DNA of 64,000 bases from Agromyces ramosus (GTDB lineage: Bacteria; Actinomycetota; Actinomycetes; Actinomycetales; Microbacteriaceae), in NCBI RefSeq assembly GCF_004216665.1, contig NZ_SGWY01000003.1, positions 806,001 to 870,000 on the forward strand. Direction: 5' to 3'. The position numbers and the translations under genes were made by a program. The notes beneath the pieces are model-generated. The model made no database searches, was not told where the DNA came from, and worked only from the letters and a program-made list of their open reading frames with translations. Every line of letters starts with the position of its first letter. Position 1 is the first letter of the stretch. Positions 1 through 34,712 of the stretch are shown here, piece after piece.

Positions 1-1
1 A

Positions 2-1447
2 GCGGTCGCGGCGATGCAGTTCACGGTCAGCGATCCGGCCGCGCTGGAGTTCTCGCGCGGCTTCTACTCGGCGCTCGCGAACGGGCGAGGGGTCGATGAA
101 GCGGTGCGCAGCGGACGGATCGCGATCCTGGGTCTCGGTCGGTTCACCCTGGAGTGGGTCACGCCCGTGCTGTACCTTGCGGGCGACGATGCACACCTCT
201 TCGACATCGACGCGGCCGCCGTGCCGGCGCTCGTGACCGCTCCGCCCCCGCCCACACCTGCCCCGATTGCCGAGCCCAGCCCCGAACCGGAGCCCGAACC
301 GGAGCCCGAACCCGGGCTCGAATCGGCGCCCGAACCCGAACCGGCGCCCGAACCCGAACCGGCGCCCGAACCCGAACCGGCGCCCGAACCCGAGCCGGCG
401 CCCGAACCGGAGCCCGAACCCGAGCCCGAACCCACAGCAGACGCCGAATCGGGGCCGGGGCGCGAGCCCGCCGAGCTGCCACCCACGTACGCACACCCCG
501 ATGTCCCGCCAGCACCCGGTCGCAGGTCGTCGCGGAAGCGCCGGCTCGTGCTCCTCATCGCTGGCGCGGCGGCACTCGTCGGGATCGGGACCGCCGTGGT
601 ATTCGCACTTGGCGGCTCGAGGTCGAGCGGGGGCGCGGTCGTGGGGGATGGCCCGTCCGAACCGGACCCACCGATGACCTTCACGATGCCGGGGAGCATC
701 CCGTGGACCTCGACCGGCGTCGAATGCACCGGCGGGAGCGCCCTCGAGATCACGGCCACGGGGACCGTGACCGATGAGTCGGACCCGTCGGCACCGGTGA
801 CGCCCGACGGACTCGACGACGTCGCCCGCCGTCAGGCGAACCTGCCCGCACTACCCGACGCCAATGCCCTCGCCCTGGTGGGTCGGGTCGGCGAGGACCA
901 GCCGTACTTCGTGATCGGCAGCGACTTCACCGGCATCTGCCCTGCCTCCGGCCCGCTCGATATCGGACTCAACGACACGGCGACCAGTGGCAACGGCGGA
1001 TCGTTCGAGGTCACCGCGACCATGACGCCGAGCAACGGTGTCGGCAATTACTTCGTCGAACCCGTGCCCGGAGACTCGACCTGGTCGCAGGCAGCCGTCA
1101 CCTGCGAGGCAGGCGACCGGATCCACTTCATGGCCAGCGGGCGGGTACTGCTCGGAGGGGCGCCGGACCGAGTCGCCGGACCCGACGGACGGCCGGGGGA
1201 CGACGCATCCTCGAACCTCCCCGGGCTCGAGTCGGCTCCACCCGGGGCGTTGATCGGGCGATTCGGTGACGCCCCGCCGTTCCTCATCGGTTCGTCGTCG
1301 TCGGTGGCGTGCCCGGGCGGCACCGAGTACTGGCTCGACCTGGCTCTGGGGATCAACGACGCGGGCCCGGATGTCGCCTACAACACCGGAACGTTCACGG
1401 TCGCGGTCGTGCCCCTCACCGAGACGGATCCGTCCGAATCGGACTGA
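2..1447 (+). CDS. CHAT-domain protein (3' part) with membrane helix and two PA-IL/LecA-like domains
   Basis: The reading frame is already open at the window edge, so the true N-terminus lies upstream; an internal ATG is at 14. Numbering from that ATG, residues 1-65 match the C-terminal end of a CHAT (caspase-like) peptidase domain: [31 protein letters not shown]. The catalytic His/Cys part is outside the window. Residues about 72-172 are a Pro/Glu linker ([11 protein letters not shown] repeats), then RRSSRKRR and one hydrophobic helix at about 176-199. Residues about 230-345 and 354-468 are two copies of a PA-IL/LecA-type fold ([23 protein letters not shown]), each with two cysteines, which suggests one disulfide per copy outside the cell. 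Predicted topology is CHAT inside and lectin-like domains outside. The family assignment is by motif memory; the ligand is unknown. Confidence 0.75.
283..435 (+). repeat. In-frame tandem repeats encoding the Pro/Glu linker
   Basis: Repeated 12- and 18-base units of the type GCGCCCGAACCCGAACCG encode the PEP/APEP linker between the CHAT end and the membrane helix. Units are in frame, so copy-number change would alter linker length without breaking the gene. Confidence 0.8.
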
Positions 1448-4972: not shown

Positions 4973-5352
4973 CAGCGGGTCACCCCCGCGGTGACGGATG
5001 CCGCGGCGGCATCCGCCTCGATCTCCTCGCGGATCTCGGTGGCGAGCGGGTCGAGGCGCCGGTTGGCGAAGTGCACGTACCAGGTGGTCACGGCGAACGT
5101 CGTGACGACCTGCGCGAGGCCGAGGAGCATCGCCATGTTGATGCTGCCGAACACGGGCGTCGACATGAAGTCGTGCGCGTAGCTCGCGAGCAGCACGTAG
5201 GCGAGGTACCACGCGAGGCACGCGCCGAGCACGGGGAACACGAAGCTCCGGTGCGTGCGGCGAAGGGTCTGGAACTCGGGTGATTGCTGGACCGCGCGGT
5301 AGTCGACGTCGAGTGGGGTCGTCGTCTCCGCGCTCAGGGCTTCGTTGCCCAT
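4972..5352 (-). CDS. DUF485 membrane protein (YjcH-like), symporter partner
   Basis: A 126-residue protein of the DUF485 family that almost always precedes an actP-type symporter gene. Signature segments are FQTLRRTHRSFVFPVLGACL, two hydrophobic helices (about 41-62 and 77-97), and YVHFANRRLDPLATEIREEI after the second helix. The start was set at ATG 5352, which has GGAGAG 5 bases upstream, rather than at longer upstream frames. It ends in an ATGA overlap with actP. Its C-terminal EADAAAASV is encoded by the palindrome at 4994-5015, a juxtaposed inverted pair of the GGATGCC word. Role in transport is not established for the family. Confidence 0.88.
   Translation of the reverse strand: MGNEALSAETTTPLDVDYRAVQQSPEFQTLRRTHRSFVFPVLGACLAWYLAYVLLASYAHDFMSTPVFGSINMAMLLGLAQVVTTFAVTTWYVHFANRRLDPLATEIREEIEADAAAASVTAGVTR
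4994..5015. repeat. GGATGCC/GGCATCC inverted pair inside a coding region
   Basis: An interrupted palindrome with arms CGGATGCCG and CGGCATCCG. The same 22 bases recur exactly at 28871-28892 inside the unrelated mntR-like gene, each time encoding Asp-Ala-Ala-Ala-Ala-Ser or its equivalent on the coding strand. Confidence 0.8.
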
Positions 5353-5490
5353 GGCGTCTCTCCTTCGAGGGGGGTCTCGGCGGGCCGTTCGCCGCGCCGG
5401 TGCGCTGTGCCGTCGTGGCCGGCGGGCAGTGCAGTGGCACCATGCTGGCGCTCGCTCCGGGCCGCCGGGGGGCCGTGCCGCTCGTCGTCG

Positions 5491-5542
5491 GTGAACGGCG
5501 TCCATCCTGCGACGAACGGCGATTCGGCGACGACGAACGACG
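5491..5542. promoter_or_regulatory. Three direct repeats at exact 21-bp spacing, candidate LytTR binding sites
   Basis: GTGAACGGCG (5491-5500), ACGAACGGCG (5512-5521) and ACGAACGACG (5533-5542) share the GAACGGCG core with at most two changes. The 21-bp period is two helical turns. Regulators with LytTR domains are known to bind paired direct repeats with about this spacing. They sit in the divergent region between the DUF485/actP operon and the lytS-like gene, the last copy directly abutting the -10 box of the latter. Function is inferred. Confidence 0.55.
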
Positions 5543-5544
5543 GC

Positions 5545-5550
5545 TACGCT
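5545..5550 (+). promoter_or_regulatory. -10 box TACGCT of the histidine kinase operon
   Basis: TACGCT ends 7 bases before the ATG at 5558, predicting a leaderless transcript. The phased repeats lie immediately upstream and would overlap RNA polymerase. Confidence 0.5.
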
Positions 5551-5557
5551 GACCTGC

Positions 5558-6778
5558 ATGCCCGAGTCGATGTTGCTCGCCGCTGCCGCCGGCGTCGTCG
5601 CGGGGGCGCTGGCGGTCGGCGTGGTGCTGCTGTTGCGACGCCTCGTGGTGGCATCGAGAGAACTCGGCACCGACGTGGAGCGGGCGACGTACCAGACGCT
5701 CCACCTGGCCAGCCGTGCGGCGAAGCACCTGCGGGGCGGCATCGACGAGGTCGACGCGATGCGGGCGGGCCGCTACCTCCGGGCCCTCCTCGGCTGCGAG
5801 TCGCTCGCACTGGTCGACCGCGCGGGTGGCGTCACGGTCGAGGGCGACGACGCGGTCCGCTCGGTCGCCGGCCGCCTGGCGGCCGAGGCGAGCGCGTCGG
5901 GCAAGTCGCAGGTGCAGCGGCGCATCCCGTTGGGCGACGGCGAGACGGATGCCGTGGCGGCACCGATCCTCGCCGACGGACGGGCAGTCGGGGCGATCGT
6001 CGCGTTCGCGGCGCCCGTGCGCGCCGGGCTCGTGCGCGCGACCGGGGAGGTCGCGGACTGGGTCGCCGCCCAGGTCGAGCTGGGCGAGCTCGACGCGTCG
6101 CGAGCGGCCCTCGCGGAGGCAGAGGTGCGCGCCCTGCGCGCGCAGATCAGCCCGCACTTCATCTACAACTCGCTCAACGCGATCGCGTCGTTCATCAACA
6201 CGGATCCGGCACAGGCCCGGGAGCTGGTGCTCGAGTTCGCCGACTTCACGCGCTACTCGTTCCGCAGGCACGGCGACTTCACGACGGTCGCCGAGGAGCT
6301 CCGCTCGATCGACAGCTACCTGCGCCTCGAGCGTGCGCGGTTCGGCGACCGGCTGAAGGTGACGCTGCAGGTCGCCCCCGAGGTGCTCTCCACGGTGGTG
6401 CCGTTCCTGTCCATCCAGCCGCTCGTCGAGAACGCGGTGCGGCACGGGCTCGAGTCGAAGGAGGGCGGCGGCCGCATCACGATCACCGCCGAGGACTCCG
6501 GCGCCTTCGCCGAGATCAGCGTTGAGGACGACGGTGTCGGCATCGACCCCGCGGTGCTCGAGTCGGTGCTCGCGGGCGGTGCGCCCGGCGAGCACGTGGG
6601 CCTGCGCAACGTCGACGCGCGCCTCCGGCAGGTCTACGGCGAGGAGCACGGGCTCGTCGTCGAGACCAACGTGGGGGCGGGCACGCTCGTGCGCATGCGC
6701 GTGCCGAAGTCGCAGCCCGGCCGCGTCGCGGCATCCGCCGACGCCGCCCTCGGGCCCGATGGGAGACTGGAACGGTGA
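5558..6778 (+). CDS. LytS-family sensor histidine kinase
   Basis: A 406-residue sensor of the His_kinase (PF06580) type that pairs with LytTR regulators. One N-terminal membrane helix (about 5-27), then a GAF-like sensory region (about 35-180), then the phosphoacceptor block ALRAQISPHFIYNSLNAI with His200, the N box VENAVRHGLESK, and the ATP-binding loops VEDDGVGIDP and GEHVGLRNVDARL. It lacks the multi-helix 5TM-LYT input domain of classical LytS, so the signal is probably cytoplasmic, sensed by the GAF-like part. Its stop overlaps the GTG start of the response regulator gene (GTGA). Divergent from an acetate-type symporter operon and upstream of another symporter, it probably senses a carboxylate or metabolic state. 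Confidence 0.88.
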   Translation: MPESMLLAAAAGVVAGALAVGVVLLLRRLVVASRELGTDVERATYQTLHLASRAAKHLRGGIDEVDAMRAGRYLRALLGCESLALVDRAGGVTVEGDDAVRSVAGRLAAEASASGKSQVQRRIPLGDGETDAVAAPILADGRAVGAIVAFAAPVRAGLVRATGEVADWVAAQVELGELDASRAALAEAEVRALRAQISPHFIYNSLNAIASFINTDPAQARELVLEFADFTRYSFRRHGDFTTVAEELRSIDSYLRLERARFGDRLKVTLQVAPEVLSTVVPFLSIQPLVENAVRHGLESKEGGGRITITAEDSGAFAEISVEDDGVGIDPAVLESVLAGGAPGEHVGLRNVDARLRQVYGEEHGLVVETNVGAGTLVRMRVPKSQPGRVAASADAALGPDGRLER

Positions 6779-7524
6779 CCATCAGCGTGCTCATCGCCGA
6801 CGACGAGCAGCCCGCGATCGACGAGCTGGCGTTCCTGCTCGGCCAGGATCCGCGCATCGGGATCATCCACCAGGCCGCCTCGGGCGCGGAGGCCATCCGC
6901 CTGCTCACGCGCGAGCCCGTGGACGCGGCCTTCCTCGATATTCACATGCCCGGCCTCACCGGGTTCGACCTCGCCCGCGCGATGCAGCGCTTCGAGCGCC
7001 GCCCCGCCCTGGTGTTCGTGACCGCCGACGAGGAGGGGGCCCTCGAGGCCTTCGACCTCGCGGCGGTCGACTACCTCCTGAAGCCGGTGCGCACCGAGCG
7101 CCTGCACCGCTCGGTCACCCGTATCGTCGAGGCGTTGAAGGCGGCATCGGCTCCGGCCGCCGGCGCCGCGGCGTCCGAGCAGCAGCCCGAGGTGATCGCC
7201 GTGACCCTCGGCGGCACCACCCGCATGATCCGCCGCGACGAGGTGCGGTACGTGCAGGCGCAGGGCGACTACGCGCGCCTGCACACCGAGGAGGCGAGCT
7301 ACCTCGTGCGCGTGCCGATGTCCGACCTCGAGCGGCAGTGGTCCGAGGCGTTCGTGCGCATCCACCGCTCGTACCTCGTGGCGATCGGGCACCTCACCCG
7401 CATCCGCCTCGGCGGCGACCACCCGAGCGTGGTGGTCGGGGCGGCCGAGCTGCCCGTGAGCCGCCGGCTGCTGCCCGCCCTGCGGGAACGGCTCGAGGCG
7501 GCGACGATCCGGCCGCGGCCATGA
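6775..7524 (+). CDS. LytTR-family response regulator
   Basis: A 249-residue transcription regulator. The receiver domain (1-120) shows the acidic pair DDEQ near the start, the phosphoacceptor Asp55 in AAFLDIHMPGLTG and the conserved Lys in YLLKPVRTERL. A short Ala-rich linker leads to a LytTR DNA-binding domain (about 140-245) with RRDEVRYVQAQGDYARLHT, FVRIHRSYLVAIGHLTRI and LPVSRRLLPALRERL. It starts with GTG overlapping the kinase stop, so kinase and regulator are cotranscribed and translationally coupled. It is the obvious candidate to bind the 21-bp-phased repeats at 5491-5542 and to control both flanking symporters. Confidence 0.92.
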   Translation: MTISVLIADDEQPAIDELAFLLGQDPRIGIIHQAASGAEAIRLLTREPVDAAFLDIHMPGLTGFDLARAMQRFERRPALVFVTADEEGALEAFDLAAVDYLLKPVRTERLHRSVTRIVEALKAASAPAAGAAASEQQPEVIAVTLGGTTRMIRRDEVRYVQAQGDYARLHTEEASYLVRVPMSDLERQWSEAFVRIHRSYLVAIGHLTRIRLGGDHPSVVVGAAELPVSRRLLPALRERLEAATIRPRP

Positions 7525-7964
7525 GCGACGAGCGAGCGGATGCCGCGGGGCCGGCGCCCGATCCACGCGAGCCGGCCGGCGAGCGAGCGGATGCCCCGCC
7601 CGCGCGCGTGCGCGTGACCGCCCGGAGCGCGGGCTCCGCTGCGGCATCCGCACGGCCGGCCCTGATCACGGGCAGCGACGCCCCCACGAGCGACATCGCC
7701 GGGGTCTACGTGCGCTCGCTGATCCGCTCGCAGCTGCGGCTCGGGATCGTGTTCGCCGTCGGCTTCGCCGTGGCGACCGCGTCGTTCGTCATGGCGATCG
7801 CGGTCGTGCCGGAGCTCGACGCCACGTTCGTGCTCGGCGTTCCGCTGTCGTGGCTCCTCCTCGGCGTCGGGGTCTACCCGCTCGCGATCACCGTCGGCGG
7901 CCTCTACGTGCGAGCCGCCTCGCGGAACGAGGCCCGCTACCGCTCGCTCACGGAGGACGAGTGA
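7521..7964 (+). CDS. Two-helix membrane protein, DUF485-like symporter partner
   Basis: A 147-residue protein. The first 60 residues are Ala/Pro/Arg-rich and probably disordered; the rest has two hydrophobic helices (about 74-95 and 105-127) flanked by VRSLIRSQLRLGIVFAVGF and GGLYVRAASRNEARYRSLTE. The helix spacing and the position directly before a symporter gene mirror the DUF485/actP pair on the other side of the kinase genes, although the similarity to DUF485 is only topological by eye. The start overlaps the regulator stop (ATGA) and the stop overlaps the symporter GTG start, so all four plus-strand genes form one coupled operon. Confidence 0.7.
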   Translation: MSDERADAAGPAPDPREPAGERADAPPARVRVTARSAGSAAASARPALITGSDAPTSDIAGVYVRSLIRSQLRLGIVFAVGFAVATASFVMAIAVVPELDATFVLGVPLSWLLLGVGVYPLAITVGGLYVRAASRNEARYRSLTEDE

Positions 7965-31751: not shown

Positions 31752-34712
31752 CTATGCCGCGGGCCCCGGCCCGGCGATGCTCGCCGTGAGCGGCTCGCCA
31801 CCGGCGCGGTTCGCGAAGCAGTAGTACGTGCGCTCGCCCGCCGCCCACTGCTCCTCGGTGACGGGGAACGCCGCCTGCACCTGCAGGTCGTTCACGCCCG
31901 ACACCGCGGCGACGTCGATCACGCCGGGCGCCGTGCAGAGCAGGTTCATCTGCGAGGCGATCTCGCTCTCGCCGGGGAACGGCGTCGTCGCGTCGCCGGG
32001 CAGCGTGCCGCGGTACACGAGCTGTGCCGCGTGGGGTGCCGCGCAGTCGACGACGGTGAACTCCTCGTCCCAGGCCGACCCGAACGGGTCGATGCACTCG
32101 CCTCCGAAGAGCGTGTTCCACGCGTGCACGCCGACGGGCTGCGGGGCGGTCGGCGCGGCGACCGGCGTCTCGGTCGGGGTGGGGGACGCGGACGGCCCGG
32201 CGGCCTCGCCGCCGCCGGAGATCAGGGTGCCGACGTAGAACAGTCCGGCGAGCACGACGAGCACCACGAGGCCGCCCGCGATCCAGAGCAGCGTGCGGAC
32301 CGTGCGGTGGTCGCCTCCCGGGCCGGAGCCGCCGGGACCGGCCGAGCCGCCCGAACCGGGAGGTCGTGGTGCAGGGCCCGAGGGCCGGGGTTGTGCGGGC
32401 GCCGGTGCGGGTTGCGGCGTGGCCGCCCTCGCCCCCGTGGTGCCCGCCAGGCCCGCGCCCGCGACGGCCGTGTCGGCCGCGAAGGGCCAACCCGACGGAC
32501 CGGAATCCGGCTCGGCCGGCAGGCGGGCGGAGCCGAAGAGCGCGGCGAGCGGATCGTCGTCGTGATCCGCCGGCGCGGCCGGGGTCGGTCGGCTCGCCCC
32601 GGCGGACGTCGGGAACAGCGCGGTGAGCGCATCGTCGCCACCCGGCGGCGTCGTCGACTGGGCGGTCGGGTACGCCGCCGTGGCCGGCTCGGCCGCATCG
32701 GTGGCCGCGAGATCGTCGTCGACCGACCGACCGGGCTCGGGCCCGGGCTCGGGCTCGGGTTCCGGTTCCGGTTCCGGCTCGGGTTCGGGCTCCGGCTCGG
32801 GTTCGGCCTGGATCGGCACCATCCAGAACGGCAGGGGCTCGTCGGGCTCCTCGGCCTCGTGCTCCGCCGCCACCTCGGTGGGCTCGACGGCCACGGCCGC
32901 AGGCTCGTCGGCCGCGGGCGTGCCGGCGAGCGGCTCGTCGATCGCCGGCCCATCGGGCGCGGTCCCATCTCGGTTGCCGTCCGCGATCGGCGACGGCACG
33001 ACGTCGTCCCCTCCGCCGGCCGCAGCGGCCTTCGGGTCCGCGGCGGACGGGTCGGGCGTGAGGTTCCAGAAGTATCCGGTCTCGGCGAGCTCGCGGGCGA
33101 TCGGTGACTCCGCATCGGGCGCAGGCTCGGACTCGGCGGTGGCGTCCGCGCGCCCGCGCCCGAAGAATCGCGCGGCCCCGTTGCGCGGCGGCTCCGGCTC
33201 GTCGGCCTCCTCTTCGGCGTCGTCATCGTCGCCGAACGCGAGGCCGAGGGCGTCGAGGGCCTCGTCGCCGGGGCGGACCGGCGGCGTTCCCCCGCCGTCG
33301 GACCCGAACCCGGAACCCGACCGCTCGTCGGGCACGTCGGTCGATCCCTCGTCGGACGCCGGGCGACCCCCGCCTGCGGCGAGGGCGGCGAGCAGGTCGT
33401 CGACCGGCTCGTCGGACTCCCGGTCGCCGCCACGGTCGTCGCCACCACCGCCGGCCGCGGCGAAGGCCGGGAGCGGCACGCGACGATTCGCGGCCGACTC
33501 GGTCTGCACGCCGACGGGTTCGGAGACCGACGACTCCGCCTCGCCCCGCACCTCGATGAAGGGGAAGTCGTTCGTGGTCATGGTCGCCTCGGCGGGCGTC
33601 GCCGGCGGAGTGGTCGTCGCCGAGGGACGGGTCAGCGCCGCGAACGGGTCGACGGTGTCGGCGGCGAACGCGCCGAATCGGTCCGACGCGGGTGCCGGGA
33701 GCGGGTCGGACGGGACGGCCCCTGCCGGCGTCGCTGACGCGGACGACCCCTCGTCACGGAGGGCCGACCACAGCTCGTCGTCGTGGCCGGCAGCTCGTCC
33801 GGGCTGGGCGGCCCGTTCGTCCCAGCCGGCCGGAGCGGTCGTCGGCGCGATCGGATGCCGCGGCGGACGCACCGTCTCGGCGGGCGGCTGCGCCGGCTCG
33901 GGCGACGGCGACGTGGGCGCGGTCGACGCGGGCGGAGCCGGCGGCTCGGGCGTCACGGGGGGCGTCGCCACCGGCGTGAACGACTGGCGGGCCACGGGCG
34001 GAGGCGTGAAGCCGGCGAACGGCGTCGCCTCGGGCTCACGGCTCGTCGCCTCGGGCTCCCGGCTGCTCGGCTCGGGCTCCCGGCTGCTCGGCTCGGGCTC
34101 CCGGCTGCTCGGCTCGGGCGGCGCCGGCGACGGCGCTCGGTCGTCGGCCGTCGGCTCGGGGGACGGGGGCGCCGAGAGGTTGCGGAAGGCCGCCCGGATG
34201 GCGTCCTCCGAGTCGAGGTCGCCCGACCCCCAGGTGAGGGCGAAGGGCGCCGTCGGCGTGACGGGGCCGGGCGGCGTCGCCGGCTCGGATGGCGCGACGG
34301 GCGCCGACGGGACCGCGCCCGGTCGACCGACGGTGAACGGCGGGTTCCACGCGGGGAGCCCGGCAGCCGTCTCCGCCTCGGCGGCGGGTGTCGACACCGG
34401 AGGCTCGACCTGCGACGGCACGCCCTCGGGAGCCGAGGGGGCGGGCGGCCCGCCGATCACGGGCAGCGCACGCGTCGGGGCATCCGGGGCCACCGGCGAC
34501 TCGGCCAGCGAGAACCAGTCGAGCACCTCCTCGCGACGGGGCGCGGGAGCGGGTGGCTCCGTCGGGGCGGGCGCCGGAGCCGCCTGCTCGGGCGGCGCGA
34601 CCGGCGACGGCGGTGCGACGGGCGGGTCCTGACGCGCTGGAGTGGACCCGGCCGCGAGTTGCGCGAGCAGCCAGTCGGCGTCGTCGTCGAAGTCACGCCC
34701 GTCGCGATTCAT
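31752..34712 (-). CDS. Large low-complexity membrane protein with C-terminal Septum_form domain
   Basis: A 986-residue protein. About 830 residues at the N-terminus are Pro/Ala/Glu/Ser-rich and probably disordered, with PEPEPEP runs and SREPEPS repeats. One membrane helix (LLWIAGGLVVLVVLAGLFYV) at about 840-860 is followed by an extracellular domain of about 110 residues with four cysteines (GGECIDPFG, VVDCAAPHAAQLVY, LLCTAPGV, YYCFANRAGGEPLTAS) that matches the Septum_form family of actinobacteria. The topology (N-in, domain out) suggests a cell-envelope or division role; the family is poorly characterised. The start ATG shares one base with the pyrE stop (TGATG), so it is translationally coupled to pyrE. 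Confidence 0.8.
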   Translation of the reverse strand: MNRDGRDFDDDADWLLAQLAAGSTPARQDPPVAPPSPVAPPEQAAPAPAPTEPPAPAPRREEVLDWFSLAESPVAPDAPTRALPVIGGPPAPSAPEGVPSQVEPPVSTPAAEAETAAGLPAWNPPFTVGRPGAVPSAPVAPSEPATPPGPVTPTAPFALTWGSGDLDSEDAIRAAFRNLSAPPSPEPTADDRAPSPAPPEPSSREPEPSSREPEPSSREPEATSREPEATPFAGFTPPPVARQSFTPVATPPVTPEPPAPPASTAPTSPSPEPAQPPAETVRPPRHPIAPTTAPAGWDERAAQPGRAAGHDDELWSALRDEGSSASATPAGAVPSDPLPAPASDRFGAFAADTVDPFAALTRPSATTTPPATPAEATMTTNDFPFIEVRGEAESSVSEPVGVQTESAANRRVPLPAFAAAGGGGDDRGGDRESDEPVDDLLAALAAGGGRPASDEGSTDVPDERSGSGFGSDGGGTPPVRPGDEALDALGLAFGDDDDAEEEADEPEPPRNGAARFFGRGRADATAESEPAPDAESPIARELAETGYFWNLTPDPSAADPKAAAAGGGDDVVPSPIADGNRDGTAPDGPAIDEPLAGTPAADEPAAVAVEPTEVAAEHEAEEPDEPLPFWMVPIQAEPEPEPEPEPEPEPEPEPEPGPEPGRSVDDDLAATDAAEPATAAYPTAQSTTPPGGDDALTALFPTSAGASRPTPAAPADHDDDPLAALFGSARLPAEPDSGPSGWPFAADTAVAGAGLAGTTGARAATPQPAPAPAQPRPSGPAPRPPGSGGSAGPGGSGPGGDHRTVRTLLWIAGGLVVLVVLAGLFYVGTLISGGGEAAGPSASPTPTETPVAAPTAPQPVGVHAWNTLFGGECIDPFGSAWDEEFTVVDCAAPHAAQLVYRGTLPGDATTPFPGESEIASQMNLLCTAPGVIDVAAVSGVNDLQVQAAFPVTEEQWAAGERTYYCFANRAGGEPLTASIAGPGPAA
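34029..34120. repeat. 21-bp in-frame tandem repeats in the Septum_form gene
   Basis: About four copies of a 21-base unit (CTCGGGCTCCCGGCTGCTCG plus one base on the plus strand) encode consecutive SREPEPS heptapeptides. Copy-number variation between strains would be expected and would stay in frame. Confidence 0.75.

Follow-up and report, generated by a model that had tools for sequence, protein, structure and literature searches.

Copy T at the edge of the window

The DNA analysed, referred to below as the window, is a stretch of 64,000 nucleotides from Agromyces ramosus (G000:C3:806001-870000; genome of 3.84 Mb in six contigs). Its first gene, designated copy T, occupies window 2-1447 (+) with 481 open codons. 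In region L009, which includes the 10 kb upstream of the window (L009:10001 is window base 1), the frame was found to extend upstream to L009:9342 (window -658), giving 701 open codons at L009:9342-11447. The usual N-terminus of the family (MSAIIEVEIGPG...) begins at L009:9111 in the same frame, and a TAG in that frame, at L009:9339-9341 (window -661 to -659), splits the first 76 codons from the rest of T. Copy T and a tandem neighbour, with two PA-IL-like domains each, are followed by a gene reading as dihydrolipoamide dehydrogenase. The parts of T are as follows (window positions unless marked L009).

L009:9783 and L009:9927 (+): catalytic His and Cys, counted by hand, upstream of the window; motifs read in the sequence
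1-208 (+): C-terminal end of the CHAT cysteine protease; the PF12770 match reaches window 133, and the conserved family part reaches LFDI at 208 in the alignment
209-520 (+): Pro/Glu-rich low-complexity linker with PEPEPAPE repeats, from the translation
521-541 (+): basic cluster, predicted cytoplasmic side by the positive-inside rule (six K/R before the helix, one after)
542-619 (+): predicted single transmembrane helix, hydropathy 2.53
674-1036 (+): first PA-IL/LecA-like ectodomain, T1 (HMM 9e-42; model pLDDT 93.4; LecA Z 17.4)
1055-1426 (+): second PA-IL/LecA-like ectodomain, T2 (HMM 8e-35; alignments to related domains)
1445-1447 (+): stop codon, from the frame translation

The original prediction, made from the window alone, had described the end of a CHAT protease, a Pro/Glu linker, a basic-flanked helix and a pair of PA-IL-like repeats with paired cysteines, and this whole anatomy was borne out; each repeat has two cysteines. 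Elsewhere in the window, the DNA at 32744-32806 (-) matches the Pro/Glu repeat of the T linker at 89%, probably a low-complexity coincidence.

The CHAT protease half

The catalytic half of the protease had been expected to lie upstream of the window. The upstream sequence was retrieved and inspected for a CHAT fold and its catalytic residues, and it completes a CHAT protease: the motifs HFVGHG (His) and VVLNSC (Cys) were read there, and the 701-codon frame matched CHAT (PF12770) at 99.3 bits (cut-off 24) over residues 29-264. Twenty-seven CHAT-PA-IL copies, several of them close relatives of each other, were then compared, leaving out the broken copy L038:8222-9867 and copies truncated by contig ends. 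A script found the His motif in all 27 and the Cys motif in 26; the 27th is T, whose Cys fell outside the slice scored by the script and was read in the sequence. Judged by these motifs, His and Cys are kept in every copy compared. Among 76 CHAT rows checked for the motifs as written, 71 had His and 66 had Cys. The rows lacking a motif are distant relatives, except L050, which is without the His motif, and T.

L040, a full-length relative from Microbacterium psychrotolerans, was modelled in place of the CHAT part of T (pLDDT 84). Residues 1-365 of the model aligned with TPR-CHAT of Craspase (8d9g, residues 399-716) at Z 23.1, SAVED-CHAT at Z 21.8, Csx29 (8eey) at Z 21.7, separase at Z 21.2 and gingipain at Z 17.7, and residues 452-569 aligned with LecA at Z about 16. 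On the model of this relative, the predicted fold of the CHAT part is caspase/separase-like. Residues 1-353 also matched DdvA (PDB 8rot, residues 707-991; Z 17.9), and the CHAT part could by that likeness be a non-proteolytic scaffold to which a signalling protein is held, a role that DdvA's CHAT-like part may have. The retention of His and Cys in all 27 PA-IL copies argues against such a scaffold, which we consider highly improbable, and the CHAT part is treated below as a putative protease.

No TPR part of the kind seen in Craspase was matched in T or in the six other CHAT-PA-IL proteins of the genome (E up to 1). The best NCBIfam match was HetF (NF045509) at 66.2 bits, far under the equivalog cut-off of 1200. 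PADLOC returned SAVED_CHAT matches on the CHAT part, and their coverage is limited to the shared CHAT fold.

Membrane topology

The helix had a hydropathy of at least 2.04 in all 27 copies. Lysine and arginine were richer before the helix than after it in 26 of them (totals 101 vs 20). Linkers were 0 to 137 residues long. In the ectodomains there were two cysteines for each PA-IL domain, apart from one two-domain copy with an odd total of five. A single-pass topology with the N-terminus inside and the C-terminus outside is the best reading of these sequences.

The PA-IL/LecA-like ectodomain

For the window repeats, the PA-IL relationship is seen through profiles and a structure model only. Searches of the PDB with single window repeats (phmmer, E up to 10) gave no match, and neither did Pfam PA-IL (PF07828) on the window protein (E up to 1). 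The tandem neighbour of T scored 12.5 bits against a curated PA-IL cut-off of 22.5, and three of the nine single domains of the genome matched weakly (best E 6.3e-4). A profile built from those nine domains matched PllA (E 5.3e-8) and LecA (E 0.005) in the PDB, and a sixteen-domain profile matched the same two proteins at 2.9e-7 and 3e-4.

The T1 model, made from 16 alignment rows, had a pLDDT of 93.4 and a pTM of 0.86. Its first ten Foldseek matches were all LecA, PllA or EclA entries, and VIA-align gave LecA Z 17.4 (1.6 A over 115 residues), PllA 15.9 and EclA 14.0, with the next other fold at 8.3. As modelled, T1 is a LecA beta-sandwich, and the PA-IL-likeness proposed earlier for the C-terminal repeats thus holds for the repeat whose structure was predicted.

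Twenty PA-IL-like domains, two of them on kinases and one secreted, were aligned, and the columns G47, N99, D100, N106 and G108 (reference-row numbering) were invariant. Reference-row D100 and N106, kept in 20/20, align with LecA D100 and N108 in alignments to LecA; D100, N107 and N108 are the three side-chain calcium ligands of LecA. At the third position (LecA N107) nine domains have D, eight have G, and Y, R and Q occur once each; the domains with G include T1, and the Y is that of T2. The LecA galactose-specificity loop and residues are not conserved in the alignments. Since two of the three calcium-ligand positions are invariant, calcium-assisted binding is plausible, and by the same sequence comparison binding of a sugar or of the cell wall by the ectodomain is plausible.

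Related copies in the genome and their neighbours

The genome contains ten CHAT (PF12770) genes. Nine PA-IL-like domains were found in it (E up to 0.01), all on seven CHAT-TM proteins: T and its neighbour, four copies in an array at L010 together with a Trypco1 gene (81.3 bits vs 24.6), and one lone copy at L011 (C1). Two other CHAT genes, at L012, adjoin another Trypco1-type gene (NF041216, 56 vs 23 bits). This cluster (L012:2542-10899) holds the Trypco1-type gene and the two CHAT genes, one having some ten hydrophobic segments and the other a weak TPR-like end; an ORF reading as tyrosine recombinase lies about 1.5 kb further on. The third-position GC of copy C1 (L011:6262-8769) is 0.73, against 0.83-0.94 in the other six copies, which suggests a later arrival of C1.

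A similar stretch 3' of both T and its neighbour led to the proposal that T is a recent tandem duplicate of that gene. This was dropped because the CHAT parts of the two differ at pS 0.50 and T forms a long separate branch.

Trypco1 is named for its co-occurrence with trypsin-like peptidases in conflict systems, as an excerpt of PMC7159879 describes. Of the 66 CHAT loci, 21 have a Trypco1-like gene on one strand or the other, as do 7 of the 12 PA-IL loci, some loci being cut by contig ends. Trypco1 was not found beside T (L009) or at L011, and with these counts a role for Trypco1 as the constant partner of the family would be too strong a claim. When ORFs from 17 loci were grouped by blastp, the recurrent families were chromosomal genes that surround the Agromyces spots in common, antisense frames and, at some loci, Trypco1. 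Inspected by eye, these 17 loci showed no recurrently linked gene recognisable as a gasdermin, pore-former, nuclease or other killer; the gasdermin gene that the original prediction had proposed to look for was likewise not recognised by eye beside T.

Distribution across genomes

A survey of domain fusions was run on the genus and on wider sets, as had been proposed with the original prediction, and found a CHAT-TM-PA-IL family as well as other PA-IL-like fusions. A pattern-based scan of the collected genome contigs with the seven-protein alignment gave at least 66 CHAT loci, a lower bound, as the scan was built on two short peptide patterns. PA-IL followed CHAT and one helix at 12 of the 66, in Agromyces, Microbacterium and two Humibacillus genomes.

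Ten of 60 Agromyces genomes carry PA-IL-like domains, nine of them on CHAT. In the tenth (G589) the domain belongs to a separate protein (L134, end of 4977-7679 (+)), which is stand-alone, has a signal-peptide-like start and is without the cysteine pair. A CHAT match at E 0.001 was obtained in 20 of the 60 genomes and in none of the other 40. All nine CHAT-PA-IL genomes, one of which (G603) consists of many small contigs, have an array of one to four copies within 5 kb of one gene, of NYN type by reading, and that gene has a match below E 1e-70 in 58 of the 60 genomes. CHAT lay within 1.5 kb of the NYN-type-reading gene at 6 of 30 loci examined. The arrangement resembles an accessory island that occupies one fixed place in the chromosome. 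Copy T and its neighbour are at a second spot, common to G632 and G612, each of which has one copy there and is without T; gain and loss of T fit this absence equally.

PA-IL-like domains were also counted at wider levels by scoring a set number of candidates per genome. They occurred in at least 1 of 299 genomes at the family level, this being the genome's own (14 candidates scored per genome), in at least 3 of 296 at the class level, own genome included (14 candidates), in at least 8 of 200 in a Streptomyces-like family (22 candidates), and in at least 4 of 396 at the phylum level, own genome and G371 included (11 candidates).

The second CHAT-PA-IL copy of Agromyces sp. Soil535 (L038:8222-9867, equal to L137:7265-8910) is disrupted, its sequence spread over three frames; broken copies are thus recurrent in CHAT-PA-IL arrays.

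The stop codon in copy T

The TAG of T is its codon 77, and paralogs carry a sense codon at the same position. Counted by hand, the equivalent position in the L040 model falls within helix 65-80, in a segment matched structurally by the N-terminal part of the protease regions of TPR-CHAT and of separase. Because this position is inside the N-terminal protease fold, a product beginning after the stop would be without part of the fold. Copy T is probably inactive, or made as two pieces.

That T alone is a decaying pseudogene, the relic of a live family, we regard as probable, and it is compatible with the explanation that we prefer for the family as a whole. The stop at a codon that is sense in paralogs, the absence of T from the corresponding site of both G632 and G612 and another broken copy, in Soil535, all agree with decay. 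Yet the 701 codons past the stop are open and retain the active site, the helix and both ectodomains, a TTG directly after the TAG makes re-initiation possible, and the TAG itself may be a sequencing error.

Evolution of the ectodomain relative to CHAT

Copy B4 and its A. humi counterpart are 92% identical in CHAT and 52% in the ectodomain, and for B3 and A. humatus the values are 85% and 25%. B2-type copies from different genera show 83% identity in the ectodomain and 77% in CHAT; their ectodomains are conserved as strongly as CHAT across genera.

The dN/dS of the ectodomain exceeded that of CHAT in all eight sister pairs, ranging from 0.16 vs 0.15 to 1.06 vs 0.16, with a small gap in two of the eight (0.16 vs 0.15 and 0.23 vs 0.13). 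Over all 351 pairs of the 27 copies, which are not independent and for which only the first ectodomain was used, it was higher in 347 (medians 0.86 vs 0.34). Among 24 selected pairs the same held for 22, the two others being B2-Mpsy and B2-Mtri. Many ectodomain pS values come close to those between unrelated paralogs, and an ectodomain dN/dS of about 1 could be a product of saturation, of exchange or of relaxed constraint; because of saturation, positive selection cannot be claimed. In the humi2-G632c pair, pS was 0.28 for CHAT and 0.09 for the ectodomain, a sign of module exchange.

The CHAT tree was built from 65 rows by a 'quick' method, leaving out L081-L099 and duplicate loci; the rows L048 and L035_2630, labelled noTM inside the PA-IL clade, are copies cut by contig ends. 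In this tree L044 (Agromyces sp. Soil535) groups within the PA-IL clade with copy C1 of the A. ramosus genome (SH-aLRT 98), yet it has a different ectodomain.

The ectodomain on other signalling proteins

CHAT relatives also end in other parts. L049 has a helix and a C-terminal beta-propeller (Lactonase/NHL matches), and further relatives end, by reading, in other ectodomains beyond the helix or in TPR/WD-like parts. The PA-IL-like domain in turn was found C-terminal on four Ser/Thr kinases (Pkinase; L140/L032, L033, L143 and L144), encoded in large genomes of one Streptomyces-like family by the following genes.

L140:7049-8965 (-): kinase-PA-IL gene
L033:163-1872: kinase-PA-IL gene
L143:148-1890: kinase-PA-IL gene
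L144:58-1890: kinase-PA-IL gene

In descending order, the hydrophobic stretches between their domains scored 2.29, 1.84, 1.73 and 1.49, the last being weak. An EACC1-type C14 caspase with a PA-IL-like domain is encoded at L150:1477-2799 (-) in genome G997 (C14 55.7 vs 21.4 bits; NF047832 163.4 vs 140; hydropathy 2.86 between the domains). The PA-IL-like domain also occurs on apparently secreted proteins (L134, L151 and the cutinase-like L146).

The best evidence of sensing is that the ectodomain is reused with three different signalling outputs. The original prediction had read T as a transmembrane receptor in which binding of a sugar or of the cell wall outside is passed to a cytoplasmic protease. 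The sensor part of that idea gains support from the same ectodomain standing after a hydrophobic stretch on Ser/Thr kinases and a caspase. Binding of a sugar or of the cell wall is plausible, two calcium-ligand positions being conserved but not the third, nor the galactose loop.

The ectodomain could instead be an anchor rather than a sensor, tying the protease to the cell wall or septa, with CHAT acting in division or wall homeostasis as in the cyanobacterial HetF. LecA-type folds bind sugars, in which the wall is rich, HetF is the best NCBIfam match (66 bits, far under 1200), and an excerpt of PMC8406250 places HetF at midcell. The family, however, is patchily distributed (CHAT-PA-IL in 9 of 60 genomes, with no CHAT match at E 0.001 in 40 of 60), which is unlike a division protein. 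Strong divergence of the ectodomain between several sister copies and its recurrence on kinases and a caspase also count against an anchor, and we think it unlikely.

Relation to known systems

By the L040 model, SAVED-CHAT and TPR-CHAT/Csx29 (Craspase) share with the CHAT-PA-IL family the CHAT fold and the His/Cys pair. The predicted input differs, being an extracytoplasmic PA-IL fold in place of TPR/Cas7-11 or SAVED. HetF resembles the CHAT-PA-IL family in combining CHAT with one transmembrane helix, but the HetF match is far under the HetF cut-off; an excerpt of PMC8406250 gives HetF a CHAT domain, one transmembrane helix, a TPR part and midcell localisation. DdvA (PDB 8rot), by its PDB title a transmembrane anti-sigma factor, is likewise a transmembrane protein with a CHAT-like part, whereas in the CHAT-PA-IL family CHAT is N-terminal and is followed by the helix and the PA-IL domains. 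LecA, PllA and EclA have the predicted fold of the T1 ectodomain and the same positions of two calcium ligands; the ectodomain differs from these lectins in being membrane-tethered on a protease instead of a free lectin, in its cysteine pair and in the unconserved galactose loop.

Coupling of a lectin-type fold to a caspase-like effector is found in other systems. The lectin-fold sensors NPCBM and FGS, coupled to caspases in conflict systems, are called intracellular in an excerpt of PMC8195603. CLec is a DGR target with CHAT and TIR; for this CHAT-TIR-CLec target (DGR 2) an excerpt of PMC10907252 predicts a cytoplasmic location. These are other lectin folds, and in the CHAT-PA-IL family the lectin-like part lies beyond the predicted membrane helix. 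No paper bringing a CHAT domain and PA-IL together was found in the open-access literature. CHAT membrane proteins (HetF) and lectin-fold sensors coupled to caspases are already known, and the combination of CHAT with PA-IL appears to be new.

Interpretation

Copy T probably belongs to a diversifying family of single-pass receptor proteases that sense a ligand, likely a glycan held through calcium. In this explanation, the extracytoplasmic region, made of one or two PA-IL/LecA-type beta-sandwiches with a cysteine pair each, would bind the ligand, most likely a glycan, by way of a calcium ion. Binding would alter the packing or clustering of the receptor, and the cytoplasmic separase-like CHAT cysteine protease would then cleave one or more cytoplasmic proteins. 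The Trypco1 protein, whose gene often adjoins, is a likely partner and could be an adaptor, an inhibitor or a substrate. Accessory tandem arrays with diversifying ectodomains would be expected of receptors for changing non-self or neighbour surfaces. The class of ligand, activation on binding, proteolysis, the substrate and the biological outcome are what we infer here.

A narrower form of the same explanation has these receptors sensing the surfaces of phages, predators or competitors and answering, through the protease, with self-killing or arrest. It would account for the accessory arrays of one to four copies at a shared spot and for the faster evolution of the ectodomain. It also agrees with the nearby Trypco1 genes, whose domain has been described from conflict systems (excerpt of PMC7159879), with lectin-fold sensors coupled to caspases in such systems (excerpt of PMC8195603), and with the PADLOC SAVED_CHAT matches. 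Those matches are limited to the shared CHAT fold, however, and by eye no pore-former, nuclease or other killer gene was recognised across the loci; self-killing or arrest is a possible outcome, though we lean against it.

The broader receptor reading can be extended beyond Agromyces. We tentatively propose an actinobacterial system of cell-surface lectin receptors in which an exchangeable PA-IL-type ectodomain is joined to a CHAT protease, an EACC1 caspase or a Ser/Thr kinase as output, and in which the Agromyces arrays may read outside glycans from phages, competitors or kin, with proteolysis by a caspase-family enzyme as the response. To our knowledge, bacterial caspase-family proteases are mostly known with intracellular inputs. 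If the proposal is true, the system would be the bacterial parallel, in logic and not in descent, to the death receptors of animals and the lectin-receptor kinases of plants. With its small soluble ectodomains and a candidate partner gene in Trypco1, the CHAT-PA-IL family offers a direct way to test whether a bacterial caspase-like protease is activated across the membrane.
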